Shown here: one piece after another, positions 10,037 through 17,668 of the stretch
Layout of the letters: the number at the start of each line of letters is the position of its first letter
Position numbering within the stretch: position 1 is the first letter of the stretch
NCBI RefSeq assembly: GCF_036240795.1
Contig: NZ_CP108454.1
Coordinates: 3,286,001-3,350,000, forward strand
Direction of reading: 5' to 3'
Length of the DNA: 64,000 bases
Source: Streptomyces sp. NBC_01268
Lineage (GTDB): Bacteria > Actinomycetota > Actinomycetes > Streptomycetales > Streptomycetaceae
Notes under the pieces: generated by a model
The model's database searches: none
What the model was told of the DNA's origin: nothing
Seen by the model: the letters and a program-made list of their open reading frames with translations, nothing else
Made by a program: the position numbers and the translations under genes

Positions 10037-11557
10037 ATGGCGTCCAGCCTGACGACGACTTCGACCGGAACCCCGGGTTCCGAGAAGACGTTCCTCGGCC
10101 ACCCCCGTGGTCTGGCCACCCTCTTCTTCACCGAGATGTGGGAGCGTTTCTCCTACTACGGCATGAGGGCCCTTCTCGTCCTTTACCTGGTCTCCGGCGG
10201 CGCGGACGCGGCCACGGGCAGCCAGGGCGGCGGTCTCGCCATGACGGCCGCCACGGCCACGGCGATCTACTCCGTGTACGTGTCGATGGTCTACCTGATG
10301 GCCATGCCCGGTGGCTGGTTCGGCGACCGTGTCTGGGGCGCCCGCAAGACGGTCGCCATCGCCGGTTTCGTGATCATGGCGGGCCACGCCTCGCTGGCGA
10401 TCCCGGGTCAGGCGGCGTTCTTCGCGGGTCTGGCGCTCGTCGCCGTCGGCTCCGGTCTGCTCAAGGCCAACATCTCGACGATGGTCGGCCACCTCTACAA
10501 CGGCCCGGACGACCCGCGCCGTGACGGTGGCTTCACGCTCTTCTACATCGGCATCAACCTCGGCGCCTTCATCGCCCCGTTCGCCGTCGGCACGCTGGGC
10601 GAGAAGGTCAACTGGCACCTCGGCTTCGCGCTGGCCGCGATCGGCATGGGCGTCGGCCTCGCCTGCTTCCTGGCCTTCACCAAGAGCCTGAGCCCGAAGA
10701 GCAACATCGTCCCGAACCCGCTCTCCCCGGCGGAGCGCAAGGGCATCCTGGTCAAGGTCTCGCTCGTCGTCGTGCTCGCCGCCGTCTTCTACGGCGCCGT
10801 CGTCGCGCTCGGCATGTACACCCTGAACTGGGCGCTCGTCCCGATCACGCTCGCCGGCCTGATCATCCCGGTCGCGGTCCTCACGCGCATCAAGCGCGAC
10901 AAGGAGCTCGACAAGAGCGAGCAGTCGCGGATGACCGGCTACATCTGGTTCTTCGTCGCCGCCGCCGTCTTCTGGATGATCTACGACCAGGGTGGCTCGA
11001 CCCTGTCGCTCTTCGCCGACGGCAAGACCTCGGACACCGTCTTCGGTCTCGGCTTCCCGGCCACCTGGTACCAGTCGCTGAACCCGCTGTTCGTCATGGC
11101 GCTGGCCCCGGTCTTCGCCTGGCTGTGGCTGTGGCTGGCCCGCAAGAACCAGGAGCCGAACACCATCGTGAAGTTCGCGATGGGCCTGGTCCTGGTCGGC
11201 GCGTCCTTCTTCGTCTTCATCGTCCCGATGAACATGGCGGGCGACGGCACCAAGGTCTCCCCGATGTGGCTCGTCTCGATCTACATGATCCAGACCATCG
11301 GTGAACTGTGCCTCTCGCCGGTCGGCCTCTCGGTCACCACGAAGATGGCGCCGAAGAAGTACGCCTCCCAGATGATGGGTGTCTGGTTCCTCGCCGTCAC
11401 CGCCGGTGACTGCACCACGGGTCTGCTCTCGCTGGCCGGTGTGGACCTGAACGGCACCGGGATCATCGCCATCCAGGCGGCGGGCGCCGTCCTGGCCGGC
11501 TTCGCGGTCTTCATGTACCGCAAGAAGGTCCAGGCGCTCATGGGCAGCGTCCACTGA
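10037..11557 (+). CDS. POT/PTR-family proton-dependent oligopeptide transporter
   Basis: The 506-aa integral membrane protein imports di- and tripeptides with protons. The POT signature ExxER is at Glu33-Arg37 (EMWERFSYYG), and a second family motif lies near NLGAFIAP. About fourteen hydrophobic segments can be counted. ATG 10037 has AAGGA eight bases upstream. It ends at a strong convergent terminator. Neighbouring dipeptidase genes suggest, but do not prove, a shared interest in small peptides. Confidence 0.93.
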   Translation: MASSLTTTSTGTPGSEKTFLGHPRGLATLFFTEMWERFSYYGMRALLVLYLVSGGADAATGSQGGGLAMTAATATAIYSVYVSMVYLMAMPGGWFGDRVWGARKTVAIAGFVIMAGHASLAIPGQAAFFAGLALVAVGSGLLKANISTMVGHLYNGPDDPRRDGGFTLFYIGINLGAFIAPFAVGTLGEKVNWHLGFALAAIGMGVGLACFLAFTKSLSPKSNIVPNPLSPAERKGILVKVSLVVVLAAVFYGAVVALGMYTLNWALVPITLAGLIIPVAVLTRIKRDKELDKSEQSRMTGYIWFFVAAAVFWMIYDQGGSTLSLFADGKTSDTVFGLGFPATWYQSLNPLFVMALAPVFAWLWLWLARKNQEPNTIVKFAMGLVLVGASFFVFIVPMNMAGDGTKVSPMWLVSIYMIQTIGELCLSPVGLSVTTKMAPKKYASQMMGVWFLAVTAGDCTTGLLSLAGVDLNGTGIIAIQAAGAVLAGFAVFMYRKKVQALMGSVH

Positions 11558-11649: not shown

Positions 11650-13098
11650 CTAGCGCCGCAGGCGGGCCCACGGCGTGAAGGTGAACACCGCGCCGCCGAG
11701 CAGGATCACCGTGCCCGCGACGAGGGCGAGGGCGCGCAGGGCGCCGGTGTCGTCGGCACCGGTGTGGGCGAGGTCGTCCCCGCCGCCGGAGCCGCCGGAG
11801 CCTCCGGAGTCGCCCGAGCCGCCGACGACGCCGCCGGCCTGCTTGGTGGTGTCGAGCTCCAGGGAGACCGGGGAGGTGCCCTGGACCTTGCACGGGATGA
11901 CGATGTCCGTGCCGGCGAGCGACACCGTGATGGTCAGGTCGCCGGGGCTGAGCTTCGCCTTTCCGCTGGCGCCCGGCTTGTAGGTGCCGGTCATGTCGGT
12001 CAGCGACACCATCTCGCCGGCCGCCACGGGAGCCGGGTTCGCCGGGCCCCGCACGGTCACCTTGCCGCTGTCGGCACCCCCGATCCGTACGTCCATGGAG
12101 GGCTTCAGCGCCCCCTTGGGCAGCGGGGCCGGGCTGGTCATGACGCCCTTCGCCGTCTTGACCGTCAGCTCGTACGAGCCGCCGCTCTTGCGGGCGCTGA
12201 TGGACACCTTGGACGTGACGGCCTTCGGTCCGGGCGACTCGCAGGACAGCTGGACGGCGACCTCCTTGCCCGGGAAGTCGGACTGGCCGCCGCCCCCGCC
12301 CGAGCTCCCGCCGGAGGTGGTCGTCGAACCGCCGGTGCTCGTGGAGCCGCCCGAGGTGGTCGTCGAGCCGCCGGAGGCCGTGGAGCCCCCGGAGGTCGTC
12401 GTCGAGCCGCCGGACGTGGTGGTCGAGCCGCCGGACGTCGTCGTGGAGCCGCCGGAGCTCGTCGTACCGCCGGAGCTCGTGGAGCCTCCGGAGCTCGTCG
12501 TACCGCCCGAGCTCGTCGTCCCGCCGGAACTCGTCGAGCCTCCGCCGTCCGTCACCTTGATCGTGGCGGCGGCGGCGACGGACTCCTTCGGGGAGCACTT
12601 CGTGTCCGTCGACAGCGGCTTGGACACGTTGATCGTGTACTTGTCCGGCGTCAGCGTGATCTCGCCGGCCTTGTCCAGCTTCAGCTTGCCCTTCATGTCG
12701 GGCAGGAGCATCGGGCTGTTCTTCTTGATCGGCGGGTTCTGCCGCGGCCCCTCCATGGACAGCGTGCCGCTGCCCGCGCCGCCGATCCTGATCGTGCCGC
12801 TCGGCTTCACCGTGTCCTTGTCGAGGTCGAGGACGTCGGGGTTCTTGGAGGCGGCCTGGACCGTCTTCCAGACCACCTCGACCTCGTCGCCCACCTTGGC
12901 CTCGGCGGGCGCGGTGATCTGCACCGTGGTGGTGCCCTGCACCGGCGGGAGGCCGGAGATCGAGGGCGGGATGCACTCGGTCTTGTACGAGACCTCGGCG
13001 GCCAGGGCGGGGCTCGCGGTCAGCAGGATTCCCGCGCCGCCGAGCATCAGCGCGACGCCCGCCGCGAGCGTCCTCCGGGTCGTGCGTGTCGTGCTCAC
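11650..13098 (-). CDS. Sortase-anchored surface protein with Gly/Ser/Thr-rich repeat and LAHTG signal
   Basis: The 482-aa precursor starts at GTG 13098, overlapping the upstream stop (GTGA). It has a signal peptide ending PALA at about 33, a first beta-rich domain (about 35-180), a low-complexity linker of GGSTTTS-type repeats (185-271), a second domain (about 275-425) homologous to the first, and a cell-wall sorting signal: LAHTG at 443-447, a hydrophobic stretch and a basic tail WARLRR. LAxTG is the motif of class E sortases, known for long chaplins in Streptomyces. Both domains share a GGAxSG turn with the product of 14932-15645. Binding partner unknown. Confidence 0.88.
   Translation of the reverse strand: MSTTRTTRRTLAAGVALMLGGAGILLTASPALAAEVSYKTECIPPSISGLPPVQGTTTVQITAPAEAKVGDEVEVVWKTVQAASKNPDVLDLDKDTVKPSGTIRIGGAGSGTLSMEGPRQNPPIKKNSPMLLPDMKGKLKLDKAGEITLTPDKYTINVSKPLSTDTKCSPKESVAAAATIKVTDGGGSTSSGGTTSSGGTTSSGGSTSSGGTTSSGGSTTTSGGSTTTSGGSTTTSGGSTASGGSTTTSGGSTSTGGSTTTSGGSSGGGGGQSDFPGKEVAVQLSCESPGPKAVTSKVSISARKSGGSYELTVKTAKGVMTSPAPLPKGALKPSMDVRIGGADSGKVTVRGPANPAPVAAGEMVSLTDMTGTYKPGASGKAKLSPGDLTITVSLAGTDIVIPCKVQGTSPVSLELDTTKQAGGVVGGSGDSGGSGGSGGGDDLAHTGADDTGALRALALVAGTVILLGGAVFTFTPWARLRR
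11758..11772 (-). other. LAHTG sortase sorting motif codons
   Basis: These codons encode LAHTG followed by a 20-residue hydrophobic segment and a basic C-terminus, the three parts of a cell-wall sorting signal. LAxTG is typical of class E sortase substrates. Confidence 0.85.
12286..12546 (-). repeat. Tandem coding repeat, Gly-Gly-Ser-Thr-rich linker
   Basis: About twelve copies of a 5-7 residue unit (GGTTSS, GGSTTTS) are encoded in tandem. The repeat probably makes a flexible or glycosylated stalk separating the two domains of the surface protein. Copy number is likely to vary between strains. Confidence 0.9.
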
Positions 13099-14150
13099 GA
13101 CTGTCCCTTCGTCGTCGGACTGTTCTCTGACGGTGCGGAATGGGGGGTGAACCACGGCAGGACCGCGGTCGGTTCGTCGCCGGCGGTCGCCGGCGGTACG
13201 GGTACGGGAGCGCGGTCCGGCACCCGGTGGTGGTGCTGCCGCTGCCGCCGGCGGCCCGCCGGGCGGGTCCGGTCGACCACCGCCATGCCGATGCGGAACA
13301 GGGCCGCCGGGACGACGACCGCGAGCAGCAGCCAGAAGAGCGTCACGCCCCACGGGCGCCCGACCCCCCAGGGCTGCTCGACCAGCACCTTGCCGCCGTA
13401 GCGCACGGACACCTGGTAGTCGCCGTGGGCTCCCGCCGTCAGTTCGACGGGCAGCCGGATCAGGGCCTTGCGGCCGGGCGCGAGGGTGCCGCGCCACTGC
13501 CGTTCCTCGTACTGCGGCGAGAAGACGCCGTGGCTGCTGCCGACCTCGAAGACCGGGTCCTTGACCGGGGTCGGGCCGAGGTTGCCGACGGTGAAGACCA
13601 CCTCGCGGCGGGCGGGCGCGCCGAACCAGACGAGGACGCCGCCGGAGCCTTCGAGCCGTACGGTGGCGAGCACCGCCAGTCGGCCGCCGCCGGTCGGCTC
13701 GGGCAGCGGCGCGGTGGGGTGCCCCGCGACGGTGAACTCGACGTCCACGGAGTCCTGTTGGCCGGTGACCCCGGCCACGTGGACCACGCAGGGGCAGGGC
13801 TTGGGCGGTTCGGCGATCGGCAGTTTCTGGCTGAAGGCGCCCTTGGCGTCGACGGTGGCGGCCCGGCCCTCGGTGTTGGCGCAGGAGTTGGTGCCGCCGA
13901 TGACGCCCTTGCCGGGTGCGGACTGACCGCAGATCAGCAGCATGAGCAGGGCGCCCGGCTTCCAGCCGGAGCCGCTGACGGTCAGCTCGCCGCCCTTGCC
14001 GCCCTCGCTCTGCGAGAGCGCCACCTTGGGAGCCGCCTCGGCGGCCTGGGCGGCCGCGGGGGCGGTGGGCAGCAGGGCGAACAGCAGCGCGGCGAGCAGG
14101 GCGGCGGCCGCACCCGTACGCAGCGGCCTCGTCGGCCACGTCGGCCTCAT
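13095..14150 (-). CDS. Secreted/membrane-anchored surface protein, third gene of the surface operon
   Basis: The 351-aa product has a signal peptide ending near residue 37, an Ig-like domain (about 40-145) with four cysteines (74, 90, 119, 121), a second beta-rich region (about 155-262), one membrane helix (about 268-292) and a basic, proline-rich tail of about 58 residues predicted inside the cell. The first domain resembles secreted neocarzinostatin-like folds (SGSGWKPGALLMLLICGQS), an inference only. The start overlaps the previous stop (ATGA) and the stop overlaps the next GTG. Function unknown; the cytoplasmic tail could signal. Confidence 0.8.
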   Translation of the reverse strand: MRPTWPTRPLRTGAAAALLAALLFALLPTAPAAAQAAEAAPKVALSQSEGGKGGELTVSGSGWKPGALLMLLICGQSAPGKGVIGGTNSCANTEGRAATVDAKGAFSQKLPIAEPPKPCPCVVHVAGVTGQQDSVDVEFTVAGHPTAPLPEPTGGGRLAVLATVRLEGSGGVLVWFGAPARREVVFTVGNLGPTPVKDPVFEVGSSHGVFSPQYEERQWRGTLAPGRKALIRLPVELTAGAHGDYQVSVRYGGKVLVEQPWGVGRPWGVTLFWLLLAVVVPAALFRIGMAVVDRTRPAGRRRQRQHHHRVPDRAPVPVPPATAGDEPTAVLPWFTPHSAPSENSPTTKGQS

Positions 14151-14932
14151 CGGTTCCTCCGTATCGCGTACGCGGTCGCGCCGGACAGCCCGAGCAGGGC
14201 GGCGGCCGCGGCGCCGACGCCCGCCGCGGAGGCGAAGACGGTGTCCGCGGCGGCGGTCGCGGGGGCCGCGCCCGGTGCGGTGGCCGTCAGCCGGACGGTG
14301 ACCGAGTCCAGGGCGGGCGGGTCGGGCCAGGCTTCGGTGCGGGCGGCCCGCTCGCCGGGGCGCAGGGTCAGCGGCAGCGGGCGTTCGGGCCGGTCGACGA
14401 GCCGGCGGCCGAGGACGCCGTCGGCGCGGACCGCCAGGCGCGGGGCGAGCAGGGTGTTGCCGCGGTTGACGAGCGTGTAGTGCAGGGTGCCGGAGCGGTC
14501 CACGCGGACGTCCTCGACGGTGAGCGCGGCGAGCCGCGGCCCGCTGACCCGCAGGTGCAGCGGGACGAGCGTCTCGCGGCCGGCGGCGCTGGCGCGGACG
14601 GTGCCGCGGAGCTCGCCGGGCGGGGTGTCGGCGGTGACGGTCACCGCGAAGGGCACGTCCGCCCGGGTCCTGGCGGGCACGGTGACGGTCCGGGCGGCGA
14701 AGGCGACCCGGGCACCCCGGGCGCCCTGGCCGGTGAGCCGGACGGTGAGCGGGCGGGCACCGGGGTTGGTGACGGACAGGGTGTCCTGGAGCACGCTGCC
14801 GGCGGCGCCCTCCAGGTAGACGTACGGGCGTCCCGCGGCGGGCGCCGCCGTCCAGCCGGGCGCGGGGGCCGCCGCGCCCGCCCCGAGGAGGGCGAGCGCG
14901 GCGGCCCCGGTGCCGGCCCACGCCGTCCGCAT
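14147..14932 (-). CDS. DUF916-like surface protein with C-terminal membrane helix
   Basis: The 261-aa product has a signal peptide (ALLGAGAAAPA), a beta-sandwich that reads like the peptidoglycan-binding DUF916 domain of WxL-associated proteins (LSVTNPGARPLTVRLTGQG; TVTVPARTRADVPFAVTV; LRVSGP), a second domain (LAALTVEDVRVDRSGTLHYT) and a terminal helix (AAGVGAAAAALLGLSGA) with tail AIRRNR. The ATG touches the previous stop (TGATG). In Firmicutes such proteins pair with WxL surface proteins; here the partners are LPxTG and LAxTG proteins. The family call rests on pattern only. Confidence 0.75.
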   Translation of the reverse strand: MRTAWAGTGAAALALLGAGAAAPAPGWTAAPAAGRPYVYLEGAAGSVLQDTLSVTNPGARPLTVRLTGQGARGARVAFAARTVTVPARTRADVPFAVTVTADTPPGELRGTVRASAAGRETLVPLHLRVSGPRLAALTVEDVRVDRSGTLHYTLVNRGNTLLAPRLAVRADGVLGRRLVDRPERPLPLTLRPGERAARTEAWPDPPALDSVTVRLTATAPGAAPATAAADTVFASAAGVGAAAAALLGLSGATAYAIRRNR

Positions 14933-15645
14933 CAGCGTGCCGTGCGCCGGGTGAGCCAGAGCACCCCGGCCGCGCCGGTCAGCAGCACGGTGCCGCCGAG
15001 GGTGCCGAGGGCGACGGCCGAGTCGAGCGGGCCGGTCTTGGGCAGGGTGTCCGTGCCGCCGGAGTCGTCGGATCCGCCCGAGCCGCCGGTGCCCTCCGAG
15101 TCGCCCCCGCCCGCGCCGCCGGCCGCCGTGACGTCCAGCTCCAGGGCGGGCTTGGGGTTGTTCTTGGGGGTGCAGACGGCCGCGTCCATGCCGAGCGCGT
15201 GGACGGTGAGCACCCCGGCGGTGAAGGTGACCTTGCCGCTCTTCTTCGGGGTGTACGTCCCCGTCAGCCTCCCTATGGAGATCGGGGTGTTCGGCGGGAT
15301 GGCGACCGTGTTGGGGACGCCCTTGACCTGGACCTTGCCGCTGTCCGCGCCGCCGACCACGAGTTCGGCGCGCGGGGTCATGACGCCCTTCGGGAGCTCG
15401 ACGGGACTGTCGGAGACGCCCTTCTCGAAGGACATGGTGATCGTGTACGAGCCGCCGTTCTTGACGGCGGTGATGTCGACGGGCGAGACGGCGCCCTTGG
15501 GGCCGATCTTCGTCTCGCAGGCGTAGTTGACGTCGACGACCGCCGCGTGGGCGGCGGGGGCGGTGAGCAGGACCGTCGCGCCCGCCACCGTCATCGCCGC
15601 CGTCAGCGCGCCGGCCGTTCTCCTCCGGTTCGGCACCTCAAGCAC
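14932..15645 (-). CDS. LPKTG-anchored surface protein, first gene of the surface operon
   Basis: The 237-aa precursor has a signal peptide ending AAHA (about 34), one domain (about 36-165) homologous to both domains of the operon's last gene (GGADSGKVQVKG; LTGTYTPKKSGKVTF), an acidic Gly/Ser linker, then LPKTG at 201-205, a hydrophobic segment and RRTAR. This is a standard sorting signal of LPxTG type, unlike the LAHTG of its relative. GTG 15645 has GAGGGTGAGGG upstream; GTG 15636 is an alternative. It leads a four-gene overlapping operon. Confidence 0.85.
   Translation of the reverse strand: MLEVPNRRRTAGALTAAMTVAGATVLLTAPAAHAAVVDVNYACETKIGPKGAVSPVDITAVKNGGSYTITMSFEKGVSDSPVELPKGVMTPRAELVVGGADSGKVQVKGVPNTVAIPPNTPISIGRLTGTYTPKKSGKVTFTAGVLTVHALGMDAAVCTPKNNPKPALELDVTAAGGAGGGDSEGTGGSGGSDDSGGTDTLPKTGPLDSAVALGTLGGTVLLTGAAGVLWLTRRTAR
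15031..15045 (-). other. LPKTG sortase sorting motif codons
   Basis: These codons encode LPKTG, followed by a hydrophobic segment of about 23 residues and a basic tail, forming a sortase recognition signal. Confidence 0.85.
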
Positions 15646-15776: not shown

Positions 15777-16205
15777 CTAGGCGGGTGCGCCGAGTTCGGC
15801 CCAGACCGTCTTGCCGGGGGCGCCGGGGACGCGGTCGATGCCCCAGGTGCGGCAGAGCCGCTGCACGATGAACATGCCGTGCCCGCCGGGCCGTCCGGAC
15901 CGGTGCGGGGTGCGCGGGGCGGGCTGTCCCGCGCCGCGGTCGGCGACCTCCAGGCGCAGCACCCCGGCGGACCGCAGCACCCGCAGGCTCTCCGGGCCGT
16001 CGGCGTGCAGGCAGGCGTTGGTGACCAGTTCGGAGACGACGAGCAGGACGTCCTCGGCGGCGGCCCTGCGGTCGGCGGTGGCGGCCGGCAGCCAGCCCCA
16101 GTCGAAGAGCGCCTGGCGCGTGAAGTCGCGGGCGAGCGGGACGGTGCCACTGGCCGCCCCGAGGGCGAGGGTGCGGACGTCGGGGTCGCCGGAGGCAGTC
16201 TCCAT
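15777..16205 (-). CDS. Anti-sigma factor, RsbW-type serine kinase/ATPase
   Basis: The 142-aa protein has a GHKL ATPase fold: N-box SELVTNACLHA (Glu59, Asn63), G1 EVADRGAG and G2 GGHGMFIV. Such proteins bind a SigB/F-type sigma factor and are released by a STAS-domain antagonist that they can phosphorylate. The antagonist lies 81 bp upstream and the sigma factor is divergent beyond it. By memory of gene order the trio resembles the S. coelicolor SigI module (SCO3066-SCO3068), but I assign no symbol. Confidence 0.88.
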   Translation of the reverse strand: METASGDPDVRTLALGAASGTVPLARDFTRQALFDWGWLPAATADRRAAAEDVLLVVSELVTNACLHADGPESLRVLRSAGVLRLEVADRGAGQPAPRTPHRSGRPGGHGMFIVQRLCRTWGIDRVPGAPGKTVWAELGAPA

Positions 16206-16286
16206 CAGCGCTTCACCTCACCGAGTTCAGCCGATTGACGAGTGACGGGACGAGCAGGGTCGCGGGGCCGGAGGGCCGGTGGGGGG

Positions 16287-16652
16287 TCAGTCGGGTAGAG
16301 CGGACGCGAGCGAGTCATGGAGGGTGAAGACCGCGTCCGCCCCGGTGATCTCGAAGACCCGGGCCACCACGGGCCGCATCCCCGCGAGATGGACCCCACC
16401 GCCGGCGGCGTCCGCCCGCAGGCGGGCGCCGAGCAGCACGTTGAGTCCGCTGGAGTCGCAGAAGTCCAGCCGTGAGCAGTCGAGTACGAGACGTGAGCGC
16501 CCCTCGTCGAGGGCCCGGTCGAGTGGCGCACGCAACAGTTCGGCGGTGTGGTGATCGAGCTCACCCACCGGGGTGAGCACCTCGCTCGCCCCCACGGTGC
16601 GGACCTCGACCCGGAACCGCCCGGGTGCGCTGCCGATGTGCTGGCGGTACAT
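16287..16652 (-). CDS. STAS-domain anti-anti-sigma factor
   Basis: The 121-aa STAS protein carries the phospho-acceptor motif DSSGL (66-70) after strand RLVLDCSRLDFC. When unphosphorylated it should sequester the anti-sigma kinase encoded downstream. ATG 16652 gives the family length; ATG 16664, four codons upstream, is an alternative. Both upstream and downstream genes belong to the same partner-switching module. Confidence 0.88.
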   Translation of the reverse strand: MYRQHIGSAPGRFRVEVRTVGASEVLTPVGELDHHTAELLRAPLDRALDEGRSRLVLDCSRLDFCDSSGLNVLLGARLRADAAGGGVHLAGMRPVVARVFEITGADAVFTLHDSLASALPD

Positions 16653-16834
16653 GCGTCGAACCATACAAGCGCGGGCCGGTTCCGTGCACACGAGCTCCAC
16701 CACAAAGTGAACAACCCGGACAATTGCCACTTGCAACCATCGGGGCTGAGCAGGTAGGGCTAGAAGGACACATTCCGCATGGCCGGCTTGGAGGCGCCGC
16801 AAACCGCAGCGAGAGAACAACGATGGAGGAGACC

Positions 16835-17668
16835 ATGTCACCCCGGCTCGACGTCCCGGAGCTCGCGGACCTCCCGCGGATCCCGCACCCGGACGAGATC
16901 GCGCCGCACGACGCGCGCGCCCTGTCCAAGACCCTCTTCGCCCGCCTCGGCGAGCTGGAGGAGGGAACCCACGAGTACGCGTACGTCCGCAACACCCTGA
17001 TCGAACTCAACCTGGCCCTGGTGAAGTTCGCCGCCTCCCGGTTCCGCACCCGCAGCGAACCGATGGAGGACATCGTCCAGGTCGGCACCATCGGCCTCAT
17101 CAAGGCGATCGACCGCTTCGACCTGGCCCGCGGCGTCGAGTTCCCCACCTTCGCGATGCCGACCATCATCGGCGAGATCAAGCGCTTCTTCCGCGACACC
17201 TCGTGGTCGGTGCACGTCCCGCGACGGCTCCAGGAACTCCGCATCGAGCTCGCCAAGGCCGGTGACCTGCTCGCCCAGCGCCTCGACCGCTCGCCCACCG
17301 TCGAGGAACTCGCGCACGAACTCGGCATCGGCACCGACGAGGTCGTCGAGGGCATGGCCGCCGCCAACGCGTACACCGCGAGCTCGCTCGACGCCCCGCC
17401 CGAGGAGACCGAGGCCGACGGCGCCACCCTCGCCGACCGGCTCGGCTACGAGGACCACGGCATCGAGGGCATCGAGTACATCGAGTCCCTCAAGCCGATG
17501 ATCGCCTCCCTCCCGCCCCGCGACCGCCGCATCCTCTCCCTCCGCTTCACCGCGGGCCTCACCCAGTCGGAGATCGGCGAGGAACTCGGCATCTCCCAGA
17601 TGCACGTCTCCCGCCTCCTCGCCCGCACCCTGGCCCGGCTGCGCAGAGGACTGACCGCGGAGGAGTGA
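16835..17668 (+). CDS. RNA polymerase sigma factor, SigB/SigF/SigG family
   Basis: The 277-aa sigma factor has region 2 (VRNTLIELNLALVKFAASRF; EDIVQVGTIGLIKAIDRFD; PTFAMPTIIGEIKRFFRD), region 3 (VHVPRRLQELRIEL) and region 4 helix-turn-helix (LTQSEIGEELGISQMHVSRL). It lacks region 1.1, as in stress and development sigma factors. ATG 16835 follows GGAGGAG; ATG 16823 is an equally possible in-frame start four codons earlier. It diverges from its likely regulators, leaving a 182-bp promoter region. Confidence 0.93.
   Translation: MSPRLDVPELADLPRIPHPDEIAPHDARALSKTLFARLGELEEGTHEYAYVRNTLIELNLALVKFAASRFRTRSEPMEDIVQVGTIGLIKAIDRFDLARGVEFPTFAMPTIIGEIKRFFRDTSWSVHVPRRLQELRIELAKAGDLLAQRLDRSPTVEELAHELGIGTDEVVEGMAAANAYTASSLDAPPEETEADGATLADRLGYEDHGIEGIEYIESLKPMIASLPPRDRRILSLRFTAGLTQSEIGEELGISQMHVSRLLARTLARLRRGLTAEE

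Follow-up and report, generated by a model that had tools for sequence, protein, structure and literature searches.

A WxL-less Streptomyces operon with a WxLIP-like protein and two sortase signals, probably derived from WxL/Csc-type surface complexes

Introduction

Why does a four-gene operon with the layout of a WxL surface-protein cluster contain no WxL domain, and why does it carry two different sorting signals? The question is raised by Streptomyces sp. NBC_01268 (assembly GCF_036240795.1), in a 64,000-nucleotide stretch of contig NZ_CP108454.1 (positions 3,286,001 to 3,350,000 of the forward strand), hereafter the window, where four minus-strand genes, g1 to g4, span positions 15645..11650. 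A first-pass annotation of the sequence proposed a sortase-linked surface complex that recalls WxL/DUF916 systems without WxL. In the Firmicutes, Csc clusters combine a DUF916 protein, two families of WxL proteins and a small LPxTG protein (PMC1534035, PMC9772566), and one survey places >91% of WxL sequences in that phylum (PMC9772566); statements from the literature refer throughout to the available passages of the cited papers. We consider it probable that the Streptomyces operon encodes a derived WxL/Csc-type surface complex from which WxL has been lost, with sortase anchoring in its place.

Organization of the operon

The four genes overlap end to end, as the first-pass annotation described, with successive overlaps of 1, 4 and 4 bases in the open reading frames of the window.

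14932..15645, minus strand: g1, secreted protein of 237 residues with one copy of a shared domain and an LPKTG sorting signal (open reading frame and family alignment)
14147..14932, minus strand: g2, WxLIP-like membrane protein of 261 residues with two immunoglobulin-like (Ig-like) domains and a C-terminal helix
13095..14150, minus strand: g3, membrane protein of 351 residues with a neocarzinostatin-like domain, a second, probable Ig-like domain, one predicted hydrophobic helix and a putative cytoplasmic tail
11650..13098, minus strand: g4, secreted protein of 482 residues with two beta domains, a Ser/Thr/Gly linker and an LAHTG signal (open reading frame and structure model)

Both g2 and g3 have a signal-like N-terminus and a single C-proximal hydrophobic helix. 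Scanned directly against Pfam and NCBIfam, the window proteins had matches below cut-off only, and the assignments that follow needed family alignments.

g2 is a relative of WxLIP proteins

The description of g2 as DUF916-like is borne out by sequence evidence that goes beyond layout. Specifically, PF06030 (DUF916, now WxLIP_PGBD) is matched by 16 of 32 aligned g2 members at E ≤ 0.1 (best 1.7e-6), a search of the PDB with the g2 profile finds E. faecium WxLIP1 at E 0.009, and hhalign aligns g2 over most of its length with the WxLIP encoded elsewhere in the same genome (36% identity, E 4e-47). The structure model of g2 (predicted local distance difference test score 90.8) has a helix at residues 236-260 and a modelled second beta domain, and a Foldseek search with this model places E. 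faecium WxLIP structures (9i25/9i1y) at ranks 2-4, with E values of 1e-9 to 4e-9. When 58 WxLIP-type proteins are placed in a tree, the g2 proteins group together (100/99), beside the WxLIPs encoded at WxL-type loci of Streptomyces and of a sister family.

The g2 proteins differ from these WxLIPs in the length of their loops, which we measured from the alignment and compared with 23 WxLIPs whose loci include a WxL-like neighbour. The loop between G106 and G131 has 24-25 residues in 95 of the 100 g2 proteins in which it is measurable (105 in all; the remainder have 21, 21, 29, 63 and 63), as against 34-39 residues in 23/23 comparison WxLIPs. Likewise, the loop between V139 and N156 has 15-21 residues in g2 (102/105 measurable) and 26-27 in the WxLIPs (22/23). 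The loop between N56 and P86 is bimodal in g2, with 65/100 short (25-30 residues) and 35/100 at 40-57, and has 48-49 residues in 21/23 WxLIPs. In published modelling, a long WxLIP hairpin completes the WxL sandwich and a second loop buttresses it (PMC10599100). The shortened g2 loops may correspond to this hairpin and buttress, for which the available text of that paper names no residues.

g1 and g4 share a domain, and g4 looks chimeric

15124..15546, minus strand: g1 shared beta domain, residues 34-174 (hhalign against g4 domain b, E 3e-47)
12547..12999, minus strand: g4 domain a, homologous to the N-terminal domain of the WxL-like protein in the same genome (hhalign and domain tree)
11842..12279, minus strand: g4 domain b, homologous to the g1 domain (hhalign, E 3e-47; domain tree, 98/91 for the side with g1 and g4 domain b)

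The first-pass annotation proposed that g1 and g4 share a domain, with a GGAxSG turn in each copy; there is one such turn in g1 (GGADSG) and there are two in g4 (GGAGSG, GGADSG). Profile alignment confirms the relationship: the g1 domain and g4 domain b are homologous at the E value listed above, and g4 domain a is more distant from g1 (about 28% identity). Cys43 and Cys158 of the g1 domain are invariant among 20 aligned members. Domain a of g4 aligns with the N-terminal domain of a 445-residue WxL-like protein from the same genome (40% identity, E 1e-22, hhalign). Furthermore, the 98/91 branch of a tree built from 63 domain copies separates g1 and g4 domain b from g4 domain a, the N-terminal domains of WxL proteins and the sister-family domains. 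The two domains of g4 thus lie on opposite sides of this branch, which fits a chimeric protein, and g4 indeed looks chimeric, with domain a grouping with the N-terminal domains of WxL proteins and domain b with g1.

No WxL match is found in the four window proteins (Pfam, E ≤ 1) or in 20 g1 and 15 g4 family members (E ≤ 0.1). The absence could be apparent only, if the g1/g4 domain were a WxL-like module that has diverged but is still gripped by g2 through strand insertion, as in Firmicutes, with the sortase signal as an added anchor; the gene content parallels the CscA-D cluster (PMC1534035), and g2 is a WxLIP relative. We nevertheless rate this explanation as quite unlikely, because two extended loops are shortened in g2, because g1/g4-type and WxL-like domains stand side by side in one protein and are thus distinct, and because the g4 model, in its list of 50 PDB matches, has none to 9i25, described as WxLIP bound to a long WxL protein. 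With no chain of 9i25 among those matches, a disguised WxL fold in g1 or g4 is unsupported.

Among the matches listed, the best for the g4 model is 3lso from Corynebacterium diphtheriae (E 3.7e-5, with low template-modelling (TM) scores). Enolase matches in the PDB sequence search with the g4 profile were weak and were set aside as chance, and PDB sequence searches with the g1, g3 and g4 profiles and with g3 alone gave nothing useful.

WxL-type counterparts in the same genome and in a sister family

The 445-residue protein belongs to a second, WxL-type locus of the same genome (L138 6761-9941, at about 2.742-2.745 Mb), which encodes a secreted protein, the WxL-like protein and a WxLIP.

L138 6761-7735: WxLIP
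L138 7798-9135: 445-residue WxL-like protein
L138 9363-9941: 192-residue secreted protein

The WxLIP of this locus is the one PF06030 match of the genome and lies above the Pfam cut-off. The C-terminus of the 445-residue protein shows a weak, sub-cut-off resemblance to Pfam WxL (E 0.075) and aligns with a protein of locus L178 (BLAST E 1.3e-9), which is itself above the Pfam WxL cut-off (29.6 bits). Weaker similarities connect the middle of the 445-residue protein with the g3 domain (E 8e-5, probability 62%) and the 192-residue protein with g1 (hhalign E 8e-6, probability 83%). Matches of more than 430 residues to the 445-residue protein occur in 13/37 Streptomyces genomes searched.

Judged from its sequences, a sister family within the order has the same system with a WxL-like protein replacing g4. 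In particular, nine bridge loci (L172-L177, L181-L183), from 9 of the 10 genomes of the sister-family genus with a g3 match (G048 was left out), encode an LPHTG protein, a WxL-like protein, a WxLIP and a g3 homologue in the same order in 9/9 cases, and the WxLIP and g3 genes overlap by 4 bases in L172, L173, L175 and L177. A scan of five of the nine bridge WxL-like proteins gave a Pfam WxL match for each, with E values of 5e-5 to 3e-3 and scores under the cut-off. In L178, the WxLIP and g3 genes also overlap by 4 bases, and the WxL protein above cut-off is encoded on the opposite strand. Because the relatives of g4 and g2 adjoin WxL-like proteins, the link to WxL systems is one of real homology, and the likeness that had been noted as an analogy of layout is raised accordingly.

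Searching the PDB with two proteins of WxL systems yielded nothing useful. Separately, L180 3329-5143 encodes a 604-residue protein beside a WxLIP, which has an HtaA domain (E 5e-22) and a stretch like the Streptomyces WxL-like protein (E 3e-7).

Conservation of the gene set and of translational coupling

A match to g3 is present in 40 of 61 genomes searched (the genome of the window and 60 relatives), comprising 29/37 Streptomyces, 10 genomes from one genus of another family in the same order, and 1 more distant. Two sets of loci were scored. The named set consists of the best 80 of 211 confirmed stretches, found by g1 peptide patterns. Because LPK is part of one pattern, the g1 motif count in this set is partly biased by the search. 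The second set consists of the window and 28 loci found through g3 and is free of that bias; the two sets have at least two genomes in common (L047/G004, L060/G006). Some family alignments contain mechanically called open reading frames with odd ends (for example L107 for g3 and L109 for g4).

All four genes are present in 76/80 named loci; among the others, L080, L081 and L108 reach contig ends and L089 has g1 and g3 only. The complete set is present in 21/29 second-set loci, the remainder being L205-L207 (g1 and g3 only), L209 and L210 (without g4), L208 (without g1), and L200 and L211 (cut by contig ends). The homologues therefore largely stay together across genomes. A 4-base overlap of g2 and g3 is found at 70/77 named and 22/25 second-set junctions (92/102 in total), and a 4-base overlap of g3 and g4 at 70/76 and 21/23 (91/99 in total), whereas any overlap of g1 and g2 is found at just 23/78 and 5/24. 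These counts indicate that g2, g3 and g4 are usually coupled and that g1 is usually uncoupled, so the coupled translation that the first-pass annotation proposed for all four genes usually holds for the last three and mostly fails at the g1-g2 junction.

Conservation of this kind could also arise if the four genes were merely co-transcribed surface proteins, since Streptomyces proteins commonly have Ig-like folds and sorting signals, and neither a complex nor a WxL ancestry would be needed. The usual uncoupling of g1 from g2, the four loci in which g1 and g3 survive alone, and the generic Ig-tandem matches of the g2 model in Foldseek are compatible with this explanation, as is the recurrence of flanking genes, which makes the togetherness partly a matter of synteny. 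It is an unlikely explanation all the same, given that the genome has a second locus where homologues of g2 and g4 domain a are neighbours, that the same set recurs in another family with a WxL-like protein replacing g4, and that the two 4-base overlaps are so widely kept.

The operon appears to occupy a syntenic site, with flanks at window positions 15777-17668 and 10037-11557. Relatives of ATPase-like, STAS and sigma-factor genes are each found in 101/108 fetched loci and a POT transporter in 98/108 (tblastn, anywhere in the stretch, regardless of adjacency). The reduced loci L205-L207 and L089 miss g2 and g4 together, as if one unit; L209 and L210, in which only g4 is missing, contradict a strict rule. 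The operon of L114, a record titled Microtetraspora glauca, is 65-78% identical to that of the window, as close as many Streptomyces, and may reflect a mislabelled record or transfer. An S. griseus locus, L073, also belongs to the loci matched.

Sorting signals and candidate sortases

15031..15045, minus strand: g1 LPKTG motif (sequence)
11758..11772, minus strand: g4 LAHTG motif (sequence)

The two sorting signals reported earlier, LPKTG in the first protein and LAHTG in the last, are present in the sequence, and each is followed by a hydrophobic stretch and then by basic residues. The LPxTG motif is found in g1 of 80/80 named and 27/27 second-set loci (107/107 over both sets), and LAxTG in g4 of 73/76 and 22/23 (95/99 over both sets). 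Of the named g4 exceptions, L048 (LAHTG) and L058 (LANTG, behind a run of N) have the motif in another frame and L085 has LAESG instead; the sole second-set exception, L198, is cut by a contig end. g1 is the best of 18 Gram_pos_anchor matches in its own genome (21.6 bits, above the cut-off there), and its score in the protein scan is 17.8 bits, under the cut-off.

The genome of the window yields 13 sortase matches, of which 4 are class E and 8 class F, all above the NCBIfam cut-offs, and 1 lies below both. With an LAxTG motif, a hydrophobic helix, a basic tail and class E sortases in the genome, g4 has the features of a predicted class E substrate; the S. coelicolor enzymes SrtE1/E2 take LAXTG, their preferred motif (PMC5148588). 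The conserved split between LPxTG and LAxTG suggests two sortase specificities without proving them, since the single class E sortase of Actinoplanes is reported to take LPVTG substrates (PMC13251363) and SrtE1/E2 take LAXTG. More than one sortase class is present in the genome, in line with the first-pass proposal of more than one sortase. The physiological roles of class F sortases are stated to remain unknown (PMC13251363).

Three class E sortase genes are clustered on one strand (L139 3955-7595, at about 4.077-4.080 Mb of the same genome). The sortase at L215 850-1716 (about 0.073 Mb) scores 63.5 and 26.9 bits, under the cut-offs of both class E and class F.

A neocarzinostatin-like domain in g3, a predicted membrane protein

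13722..14030, minus strand: g3 neocarzinostatin-like domain, about residues 41-143 (Pfam and NCBIfam scans)
13149..13160, minus strand: LPWF motif of the putative g3 cytoplasmic tail (sequence; kept in most g3 frames)
13104..13109, minus strand: AAGGGA within the final codons of g3, the likely ribosome-binding site of g4

g3 had been described as an Ig-like protein with a cytoplasmic tail. The probable second Ig-like domain and the predicted tail agree with this description, which missed the N-terminal neocarzinostatin-like domain: PF00960 (neocarzinostatin) is matched by 31/31 aligned g3 members at E ≤ 0.1 (best 2e-7). The g3 protein of the window itself scores 21.2 bits against PF00960, below the curated cut-off of 25 bits, and its NF040680 match (E 2.5e-8) is also below cut-off. 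At the 3′ end of the gene, AAGGGA encodes the C-terminal Lys-Gly that most aligned g3 members share, and its likely role as a ribosome-binding site may explain this conservation.

The LPWF motif is present in 74/78 named and 26/29 other g3 frames scored (100/107), the exceptions being L080 and L200 (contig-cut), L048 and L107 (aberrant frame), L069, L205 and L206. This conservation suggests a cytoplasmic partner, and one could imagine a membrane signalling system in which the neocarzinostatin-like domain of g3 senses a small ligand or the state of the wall and the LPWF tail passes the signal to an intracellular partner, perhaps encoded by the neighbouring sigma/anti-sigma genes. The frequency of LPWF and the recurrence of ATPase-like, STAS and sigma-factor relatives in the fetched loci are in line with such a role. 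We consider it very unlikely as the function of the operon, since the flanking genes resemble general synteny with no regulatory tie shown, and LPWF is absent from both sister-genus g3 homologues read (L172, L175) and degraded in L205 and L206.

A proposed anchor swap

The preferred reading, a derived WxL/Csc-type complex, suggests the following mechanism. In the ancestral form, a WxL protein would grip peptidoglycan non-covalently and be held by a membrane-anchored WxLIP, with a small LPxTG protein and the neocarzinostatin-like g3 as companions. In Streptomyces, g4 would have taken the place of the WxL protein, keeping its N-terminal domain and exchanging WxL for a copy of the g1 domain and an LAxTG signal. 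g2 and g3 would stand as membrane posts, with their Ig-like domains extending into the wall; g1 and g4 would cross the membrane beside them and then be fixed to peptidoglycan by sortases, with a class E sortase the most likely enzyme for g4 and an LPxTG-accepting one for g1. The outcome would be a bridge between membrane and wall that displays the g1 and g4 domains on the hypha.

Taken in full, the operon would represent a complete natural anchor swap, in which a chimeric gene (the N-terminal domain of a WxL protein plus a duplicated g1 domain) brings a covalent LAxTG anchor in exchange for non-covalent WxL, and the WxLIP loses its long loops; two sortase specificities would then position two homologous subunits of one complex, possibly in different places or at different times as the hypha grows. 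On this fuller version our judgement is evenly balanced.

Several observations weigh against the proposed derivation. For the WxLIP kinship of g2, the window copy alone lists no PF06030 match even at E ≤ 1, a DUF3324/HBD match is listed for none of the 32 g2 members (Pfam), and Foldseek scores other Ig tandems about equal to WxLIP, with Vpr as the best match and low TM-scores for WxLIP (0.34-0.39). The joins that place the Streptomyces proteins together are weak, both for g2 with the Streptomyces WxLIPs (91/54) and for g4 domain a with the Streptomyces WxL N-terminal domain (90/55), the latter with a program warning of long branches meeting; midpoint rooting was used to draw both trees, which therefore do not prove which way the swap went. 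The WxL identity of the proteins from Streptomyces and the bridge genus rests on sub-cut-off Pfam matches and on BLAST to L178, and for one comparison WxLIP (L180) the neighbouring protein resembles the WxL-like protein but has no Pfam WxL match. The bimodal N56-P86 loop indicates that loops were not lost uniformly. Finally, the physical complex is a proposed one, and partial gene sets exist (g1 and g3 only in four loci, g1-g2-g3 in two, g2-g3-g4 in one); the persistence of g1 and g3 without g2 and g4, and the loss of g4 alone in two loci, count in particular against a fixed four-part complex.

If the reading is correct, Streptomyces has both forms, with the WxL-type and sortase-type versions in one genome, and the role of WxL is separable from that of its partner. 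The LPxTG/LAxTG pair of one operon would also offer a natural substrate pair for probing what sortases of class E and class F do in Streptomyces.

Comparison with known systems

Among sortase-anchored surface proteins of actinobacteria, to which g1 and g4 are predicted to belong, CwpA/CwpB and SspA of Actinoplanes missouriensis and the long chaplins of S. coelicolor are the nearest parallels (PMC13251363), and CwpG also has a neocarzinostatin-like domain (PMC13251363). Unlike the operon, the Cwp proteins have no WxLIP partner named in the available passages of PMC13251363, which state that CwpA/B homologues are not conserved in Streptomyces, and, unlike the long chaplins, g1-g4 list no chaplin domain in the Pfam scans. 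The open-access literature searched, in the passages available, describes no WxL-less, sortase-anchored WxLIP operon for Streptomyces; subscription papers lie mostly outside this scope.

The L138 locus of the same genome resembles the operon in its WxLIP, homologous to g2, in the N-terminal domain of its central protein, homologous to g4 domain a, and in its first protein, weakly like g1. It differs in the WxL-like C-terminus of the central protein, in having no LPxTG or LAxTG in the printed ends of its three proteins, and in having no g3 match in the fetched stretch.

In the WxL/Csc cluster of Firmicutes (CscA-D), a single operon likewise encodes a larger secreted protein together with a small LPxTG protein and a membrane protein of the DUF916/WxLIP type (PMC1534035, PMC9772566, PMC10599100). 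The Streptomyces operon is actinobacterial and differs in having no WxL domain, an LAxTG motif as its second signal, the neocarzinostatin-like g3 and two short WxLIP loops. Taking the features of a WxL/Csc cluster in turn, a WxLIP protein with a C-terminal helix is present at the family level, and a small LPxTG protein is present, with g1 larger than CscD, which has just 40-60 residues ahead of its LPxTG motif (PMC1534035); extended loops are absent in two of the three measured and the third is short in 65/100, and the WxL domain is absent. As the operon departs from WxL clusters in the defining domain itself, it counts as a WxL-less variant of them.

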